A DNA stretch of 22,942 nucleotides from a virus: IMG/VR virus record IMGVR_UViG_3300030430_000775, positions 1 through 22,942 of that record; one strand, written 5' to 3'. Shown here piece after piece: positions 15,338 to 16,752 of this stretch. Each line of letters opens with the position of its first letter. Position 1 is the stretch's first letter. The notes under the pieces were generated by a model. The model did no database searches and had not been told where the DNA came from. It worked only from the letters and a program-made list of their open reading frames with translations. The translations under genes were made by a program, and so were the position numbers.

Positions 15338-15357
15338 GGGGCCGGCGAACCGGCCCC
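15338..15357 (-). other. Perfect 8-bp hairpin between small head gene and tail tubular A
   Basis: GGGGCCGG (15338-15345) and CCGGCCCC (15350-15357) are perfectly complementary around a 4-nt loop, which reads TTCG on the minus strand. It follows the preceding stop by 6 nt and precedes the GGAGG ribosome site of tail tubular A. No T tract follows in the sense direction (CTTCCCC), so it is not a classical terminator. A processing site, mRNA 3' stabiliser or partial attenuator that lowers tail protein relative to capsid is more likely. Confidence 0.6.
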
Positions 15358-15656: not shown

Positions 15657-16508
15657 CTAGCTTTCGTCCATGACGACATCGACGATGCCATCAGTGTCAA
15701 TCGCTACAGCGCCCATCGAAAGCATCGCGGTCACAAGGAACGACGTTTTCTGAGGGATGTAGTTGATTTCCGTTTTCGGTGCGATACCGACAGCCACACC
15801 TATGGCGCTGCGGTGGAACGCAAAGCCGGTGCGGTCGTTGGTTGCCAGCGGCAAACCGCCTTCATCACGATCGCCCACAATGTGGAACTGGAAGCCCATC
15901 ATCGTGTTTATGCTGCCCTGAACCAGAGCTTGCAGTGTCTGGAAATCGCTCGAAATCGCACGCTCATCACCCAGCAACCCAGCCAGGTTGTTGGCGTGAA
16001 TCACAAAGTGACGATCGGTGGGCGGCACGTTCTTCGCATCCAGTGCCTTCTTGGCAGCAATGATCTTGCCGACATTGAGGTTTGATGCGGAGGCCGAGCC
16101 ACTGGTGACCACGGTCTTGGCGACAGTAGAGCCAGCCGAGGCGGTATTCAGAGCATCGATGATGATCTGGTCCTCACGCCGGCCGATGGCGTTACCCACC
16201 ACCTGTGCCAGCTCCTGGCGCTCGTCAAAGTTGACTTTGGCCTGGTTGAACACATCCGAGTATTCAGCAGCCACAAAGTCAGAAAGCGTACAGCTCACCT
16301 GACTGAAGGCAGCGTTGATCGGCACGACATCGGTTTGGGGCGTGCGCGGAGACGCCTGACCCTTACCAACCTTCGGGAACTTGACGGTATCACCGACAAC
16401 CCCGGTGCGCGTCCGCGCAGCCCCGCGAAGCACGGCAGCAGACTGGTACGCCTGATGCACTTCAGCTTCAAAGAGCTGGACAAACGCTGGAGAGAGATTC
16501 GTGGACAT
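15657..16508 (-). CDS. Major capsid protein
   Basis: A 283-aa protein starting MSTNLSPAFVQLFEAEVHQA, a common opening of podovirus major capsid proteins (a helical N-arm with xFVxxFxxEVxQAYQ). Then come GDTVKFPKVGKGQA, ERQELAQVVGNAIGRREDQI (spine-helix-like) and FHRSAIGVAVGIAPKTEINY towards the end; HK97 fold is expected. I chose the ATG at 16508 over an upstream in-frame one (16598) because GAGGAG sits 9 nt before it; the upstream 30 residues (rich in Arg, Ser and Gly) are translated leader. No procapsid protease site is evident. It is preceded by a long structured leader and its own promoter-like motif, consistent with very high expression. Confidence 0.93.
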   Translation of the reverse strand: MSTNLSPAFVQLFEAEVHQAYQSAAVLRGAARTRTGVVGDTVKFPKVGKGQASPRTPQTDVVPINAAFSQVSCTLSDFVAAEYSDVFNQAKVNFDERQELAQVVGNAIGRREDQIIIDALNTASAGSTVAKTVVTSGSASASNLNVGKIIAAKKALDAKNVPPTDRHFVIHANNLAGLLGDERAISSDFQTLQALVQGSINTMMGFQFHIVGDRDEGGLPLATNDRTGFAFHRSAIGVAVGIAPKTEINYIPQKTSFLVTAMLSMGAVAIDTDGIVDVVMDES

Positions 16509-16570
16509 GATTGTCACTCCTCGTTTGAACACACAAGATTTTCGCCTTGCGGGTTGTCGGGAGTGATCCC

Positions 16571-16625
16571 GGCCCTGGCTACGCGATCCGTCGCGCACGG
16601 TCTATTTCTAGACGCCAGACCGGCC
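16571..16625 (-). ncRNA. Candidate structured RNA: three-way junction in capsid mRNA leader
   Basis: In the minus-strand RNA, P1 pairs 16614-16618 with 16575-16579 (CUGGC with GCCAG) and, after a 3-nt bulge (16619-16621), GGCC at 16622-16625 with GGCC at 16571-16574. P1 encloses P2, 16609-16613 with 16600-16604 (GUCUA/UAGAC, GAAA tetraloop), and P3, 16591-16597 with 16580-16586 (7 bp including one G-U, CGGA loop). Junction linkers are 0, 2 and 0 nt. A CCC-GAAA-GGG hairpin lies just before it and competes with outer P1, and a GGGA-UCAC-UCCC hairpin lies just after. I could not assign a known Rfam class. Leader stabiliser, regulator or processing element are the options. Confidence 0.5.
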
Positions 16626-16690
16626 CTTTCGGGTTATCAGTCGATCAAGATATGACACACAACCTGGGTGTTGTAAATACTGCACCCCAT

Positions 16691-16707: not shown

Positions 16708-16712
16708 GTTTG

Positions 16713-16752
16713 AAAAAGGTGGAGGGAGGAAACTGACAGGGAACCCCCCTCC
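16713..16752 (-). terminator. Probable intrinsic terminator after scaffold gene
   Basis: On the minus strand GGAGGGGGG (16744-16752) pairs with CCTCCCTCC (16721-16729) through 9 bp with one G-U, loop of 14 nt. ACC and then TTTTT (16713-16717) follow. It lies about 25 nt after the scaffold stop and ends directly before promoter B, so it probably ends the packaging/portal/scaffold transcript at least in part. Confidence 0.6.

Follow-up and report, generated by a model that had tools for sequence, protein, structure and literature searches.

In the podovirus T7, the leader of gene 10, which encodes the major capsid protein, combines a 5'-terminal stem-loop at the transcript start with a translation enhancer; structurally it is one small hairpin behind a promoter of the phage polymerase. 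The leader RNA analysed here likewise places a structured 5' end at the probable transcript start of a major capsid gene, and the two likely do the same job, but ours covaries, measures about 100 nt and follows a sigma70-like promoter, and the comparison is one of analogy, with no claim of homology. The stabilising 5' stem-loops of ompA and papA offer a second parallel, in that 5'-terminal pairing hinders RppH and RNase E (PMC3997798); those are simple hairpins, whereas invariant internal-loop bases are found here. The put RNAs of phage HK022 act in cis just after the promoter and consist, within about 70 nt, of two stem-loops with internal loops, the first pair of putL lying at A3 (PMC9378689); put occurs in two copies (putL and putR) in the early operons, whereas our RNA occurs once, at the capsid gene. 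Finally, RNA motifs from comparative genomics (Rfam; Weinberg et al. 2010, PMC2864571) include covarying cis-acting RNAs in 5' UTRs. Structured leader RNAs are familiar elements, yet the present RNA stands outside every Rfam 15 family: the window and 16 relatives gave no match at the gathering threshold, and permissive searches with four leaders returned only chance-level matches. Nor did a brief search of the literature turn up any account of it.

The DNA analysed is the 22,942-base virus record IMGVR_UViG_3300030430_000775 from IMG/VR, taken whole and referred to as the window. Its minus strand encodes terminase, portal, a gene in the scaffold position, the major capsid protein, a 93-aa gene and tail genes, and downstream of the leader RNA lies a late operon of at least about 15 kb. 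A sequence-only reading had drawn a compact three-way junction at 16571-16625, in the gap that separates the scaffold-position gene from the capsid gene. The features of the locus are as follows.

17604-16777, minus strand: scaffold-position gene, named by position
16647..16677, minus strand: predicted promoter, -35 TTTACA (16677-16672), 19-nt spacer, -10 TATCTT (16652-16647)
16543..16643, minus strand: whole conserved leader RNA, 102 positions of model R1 (cmsearch and covariation)
16514..16520, minus strand: Shine-Dalgarno (SD) GGAG (16520-16517) with flank, read from the sequence
15657..16508, minus strand: major capsid gene (phrog_3437 major head protein, E 1.8e-50)
15338..15357, minus strand: GC-rich hairpin GGGGCCGGUUCGCCGGCCCC without a U-tract, closing the capsid and small-gene unit

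Capsid searches of viral contigs yielded three sets of 80 loci, some contigs occurring in more than one set, and their leaders were read directly. Unconstrained folding of a plain MAFFT alignment (38 leaders) returned P1 (GACUG/CGGUC), a capped CCC/GGG helix, a UGGC/GCCA stem, P2, P3 and P4. We then used a covariance model, R1, built only from A-type leaders, to align 60 leaders including AT-rich ones (38-47% G+C). On the window leader it scores 96.9 bits in cmsearch (E about 2e-17), the window belonging to the R1 seed and our covariance models being calibrated briefly. Both-sided changes occur in 28 of 30 pairs (58 distinct A-type leaders); the alignment holds 314 cells with both-sided changes vs 65 in shuffles, and its pairing score is 0.519 vs at most 0.094 for slid pairings. 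Since the R1 alignment is fitted to the structure, events were also counted by parsimony on the capsid-protein tree. This gave 125 inferred compensatory double changes, against at most 8 in slid controls and at most 25 for randomly re-paired columns, a count that corrects only in part for the inflation of covariation by relatedness. The existence of a conserved structured leader RNA is near certain: it covaries, is specific to the capsid leader, measures about 100 nt and in this analysis occurred in phages only.

The 55-nt fold as first drawn is reproduced by energy minimisation (-26.1 kcal/mol), with P1 of 9 bp and a 3-nt bulge, P2 of 5 bp closed by GAAA and P3 of 7 bp closed by CGGA. Compared with dinucleotide shuffles, the element reaches z = -2.5, two of 200 shuffles folding equally well, while the 140-nt leader reaches z = -4.0 and none of 200 is as stable. 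Relatives keep the inner UGGC/GCCA stem, P2 and P3 of the proposed junction, but not its outer four GGCC/GGCC pairs. These show no both-sided pair change, a score at or below the shuffled mean and no compensatory event on the capsid tree, and were dropped; two flanking hairpins take their place in the comparative structure. The original boundaries were therefore too narrow, the conserved element extending over about 100 nt (16543-16643). The hairpins noted directly before and directly after the junction do exist, but the former is module 1 of the conserved RNA (16618-16642) and the latter a portion of module 2 (16551-16575). Covariance among homologous capsid leaders, set beforehand as the test of the proposal, is strong, and the suggestion that the capsid leader holds a new class of phage RNA is borne out by covariation, the lack of any matching Rfam family and the tie to this leader. 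The parts of the conserved structure are listed below.

16618..16642, minus strand: module 1, with P1 (GACUG, 16642-16638, pairing CGGUC, 16622-16618), an internal loop in which AUAA (16637-16634) faces a single C (16623), and a capped helix CCC/GGG (16633-16631 with 16626-16624; loop GAAA)
16576..16617, minus strand: three-way junction, its stem UGGC (16617-16614)/GCCA (16579-16576) enclosing P2 and P3
16600..16613, minus strand: P2, GUCUA-GAAA-UAGAC
16582..16595, minus strand: P3, CGCGA-CGGA-UCGCG
16551..16575, minus strand: module 2, with P5 (GGG, 16575-16573, with CCC, 16553-16551), an internal loop in which a single C (16572) faces ACAA (16557-16554), and P4 (CGGGA, 16571-16567, with UCCCG, 16562-16558)
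16543..16550, minus strand: 3' tail ending in GGCG, conserved in the leader alignment and unpaired

All five pairs covary in each of P1, P2 and P3, with 20, 31 and 41 compensatory events, respectively; P1 was recovered by unconstrained RNAalifold as well, and the P3 loop of relatives carries a conserved GACG/CGUA-type sequence. Three of four pairs covary in the junction stem (5 events), and the capped CCC/GGG helix shows 4 events. P4 and P5 pairs covary too (21 and 3 events); P5 (AGG/CCU) was added by inspection, as RNAalifold did not predict it.

The two modules contain the same asymmetric 4x1 loop, AYAA against a single C, in opposite orientation and with basal and capped helices exchanged. 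Module 1 is ordered [helix]-AYAA-[capped helix]-C-[helix], module 2 [helix]-C-[capped helix]-AYAA-[helix]. Among 56 distinct A-type leaders, the A, the AA and the C of the module 1 loop are invariant; in module 2 the AA likewise never varies, and conservation is 86% at the first A and at the C. Such invariant internal-loop bases imply that the loops adopt a specific tertiary structure or bind a partner. In most A-type phages the middle, with its two hairpins, forms a closed three-way junction. Members of one clade (L128) lack the junction and yet retain both modules, which suggests that the modules matter most.

A second group consists of MEP301-like phages, whose capsid protein is about 60% identical to that of the window and whose leader looks different. 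Folded without constraint, MEP301-type leaders reveal the same module 1 at their 5' end (AAGG-CAUA-[..]-C-CCUU) together with two hairpins; with module 2 added, 16 of 24 pairs covary in the seed and 22 of 24 in a larger set. Model R2, built from this group alone, matches the L136/L149/L155/L159 clade with 42.7-44.2 bits (E about 4e-9 to 1e-8, in a small search), and R1 matches L136, L149 and L155 at the same place. As both models meet on these leaders, we see evidence for a single superfamily comprising A-type and MEP301-type leaders.

The leader RNA is widespread in mostly marine podoviruses, the isolate MEP301 included, and its position is strict. A degenerate pattern scan of viral contigs found 74 stretches, 71 of which lie 125-131 nt upstream of a capsid ATG, the other three being cut by the contig end. 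Whole records hold a single copy each; one contig (G009) shows a second match at its opposite end and another (G036) two weak extra matches at noise level. Two of eight capsid relatives from bacterial genome assemblies carry the RNA, both on MAG contigs, which are taken to be phage contigs binned with their hosts. A search of 289 genomes from the class of one MAG (G042, record titled Alphaproteobacteria), run without a positive control, returned no copy. No convincing copy was found in the leaders of HTVC010P, Vibrio phage 1.257.O, Pelagibacter phage Hodr and Dunaliella virus SI2, and a nucleotide search of phage records with the leader gave no match. The leader of a further MAG contig (L249, 50% capsid identity) is compatible by eye, and neither R1 nor R2 scores it credibly.

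Upstream of the RNA, sigma70-like promoters were scored with a weight matrix over the 60 nt before P1. Of 56 A-type leaders, 82% have a -10 element that ends 5-9 nt before P1, as do 84% of 31 MEP301-type leaders, compared with 15% of shuffles. The distance to the first helix is mostly 6-7 nt in both groups, and exactly 6 or 7 nt in 24 of the 31 MEP301-type leaders. Because this spacing is similar in two groups whose promoters are unrelated in sequence, an RNA start at P1 is likely; transcription probably begins at or within a few nt of the first paired base, i.e., near +1. The window itself fits more poorly than its relatives, with a 19-nt spacer and a -10 element 4 nt before P1, and a stricter consensus promoter scan of the window did not list the promoter predicted at 16647..16677.

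Three further observations concern this region. At the capsid promoters of many A-type loci a dyad overlaps the -35 element and spacer (ACAAC-N6-GTTGT at 16659-16674 of the window; relatives have TACAAGCT-ac-AGCTTGTA). Its two arms show matched variants, among them ACAACCT/AGGTTGT and ACAAGA/TCTTGT, and a late regulator may use it as an operator. In some MEP301-type promoters, those of L173 and L182 for instance, an inverted repeat spans the -10 element; the 5' AAGGC of the RNA itself forms the right arm of this repeat, so that a read-through transcript could adopt another fold in its 5' part. In the window, the gap that separates the scaffold-position gene from the capsid promoter contains GGAGGGGGG..CCUCCCUCC followed by a U-run (16712-16752, minus strand), which resembles an intrinsic terminator.

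On the 3' side, most relatives examined in both groups show a GC-rich hairpin after the capsid and small gene, differing in sequence and mostly without a U-tract. In the complete MEP301 genome, the late intergenic gaps that were inspected contain nothing resembling a hairpin-plus-U-run terminator, and those that stand out as structured are the capsid leader and the gap with this hairpin. The capsid message thus looks as if it were bracketed by structure at both ends.

Computed energies complicate this picture. By nearest-neighbour energies the conserved fold lies on average 8.1 kcal/mol higher than the minimum, and P1 and P5 make only a minor contribution to the free ensemble. Either tertiary contacts, co-transcriptional folding or a partner would hold the fold, or else the RNA would have two states. 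On average, SD accessibility rises from 0.15 in the free ensemble to 0.45 with the core imposed. In the window, duplex and ensemble calculations show GGAGUGA at the SD to be complementary to the P4 segment UCACUCC (16566-16560): the SD is paired with P4 and 0.00 free in the free ensemble, and 0.63 free once the core is imposed.

From these data we infer, as a tentative reading that we place ahead of the others, that the RNA acts in cis from the 5' end of the capsid message, shielding this message and helping its ribosome site to stay open. With transcription starting at or near the first paired base, the 5' end would be tucked into a helix and would hinder 5'-end-dependent decay, RppH, RNase E or RNase J preferring single-stranded ends. 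RppH and RNase E require single-stranded 5' ends, and 5' structure stabilises mRNA (PMC3997798). The folded core would help hold the downstream ribosome-binding site open and the hairpin would close the 3' side of the capsid and small-gene unit, so that a long-lived, well-translated capsid message could arise from an internal promoter. Covariation, the exclusive position in capsid leaders, the -10 spacing, the 3' hairpin without a U-tract and the rise in SD accessibility all support this reading. Against it, a simple stabiliser would not require invariant internal-loop bases, the computed energies favour other folds, P1 and P5 being minor in the free ensemble, and the predicted promoter of the window has a long spacer. 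Stabiliser and translational regulator, both offered by the sequence-only reading, remain candidates, while the RNase processing site that it also proposed is unlikely as an RNase III site: every helix is shorter than 10 bp, the longest conserved one being 5 bp, and RNase III needs a stem of about 20 bp.

It is possible, though we rather doubt it, that the two opposed loop modules, presented from the first transcribed base, bind a broadly conserved host machine and set capsid output without a phage protein, which would make the RNA a new class of phage device; RNA polymerase, the ribosome or a ribonuclease would be candidates.

Somewhat less probable still is a translational switch in which the conserved fold is ON, the P4 strand paired with the SD is OFF, and a ligand or a protein, for instance capsid or scaffold, on the twin modules would set the balance. 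This explanation stays alive because the SD is mostly paired in the free ensemble, with P4 as its competing partner in the window and several clades, and because P4-SD complementarity, with some matched variants, exceeds that of permuted pairs at p about 0.005, in a permutation that ignores relatedness. The invariant loop bases would be compatible with a binding site. However, CUCC-rich P4 strands match GGAG by default, and in several clades P4-SD pairing is absent, the SD pairing with the linker or other segments instead; as a universal switch this pairing was rejected.

We consider it unlikely that the nascent leader binds host RNA polymerase as an RNA-only antiterminator of the put type, aiding the reading of the long late operon. 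An RNA of this type would by itself carry polymerase past terminators, in dependence on the beta' zinc-binding domain. The position just after the promoter, the size and the two-hairpin design resemble HK022 putL (PMC9378689), some 15 kb or more of late operon lies downstream, and MEP301, having no RNA polymerase of its own, relies on that of the host (PMC8024684). Yet no put-like sequence was identified, the late MEP301 gaps inspected are free of hairpin-plus-U-run terminators that would have to be read through, and the sense-strand terminator candidates of the window fall in coding sequence. Instead of the copies in both early operons that characterise put, each genome has one, at the capsid gene.

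That the capsid leader carries a ribozyme that cleaves itself, or a small RNA that is processed and works in trans, is improbable: the compact fold and invariant unpaired bases would suit either, but there are no matches to Rfam ribozyme families and the strict pre-capsid position points to a role in cis. Functionless chance folding of GC-rich DNA, which the only modestly unusual stability of the 55-nt element (z = -2.5) might have suggested, is hardly credible, being contradicted by covariation: compensatory changes are seen on the capsid tree and in each of the two models built separately, AT-rich relatives (38-47% G+C) included.

The RNA is tied to the gene that a phage presumably needs most and offers a direct route to studying high capsid expression in phages that lack an RNA polymerase of their own. 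For work on RNA structure, its twin internal-loop modules that face opposite ways are an uncommon architecture, and R1 and R2 could serve to find the RNA elsewhere.

Two clades show additional complementarities. In the L049, L088 and L089 clade the junction stem is degraded and segments near the first capped helix are complementary to a stretch before module 2 (in L089, CUCUUUG to CAAAGAG), a possible pseudoknot. In the L136 and L149 leaders, CUGUAACC of module 1 is fully complementary to GGUUACAG just upstream of module 2, and both modules contain identical helix sequences (AACUGU, ACAGCC), so that strands could exchange between them.
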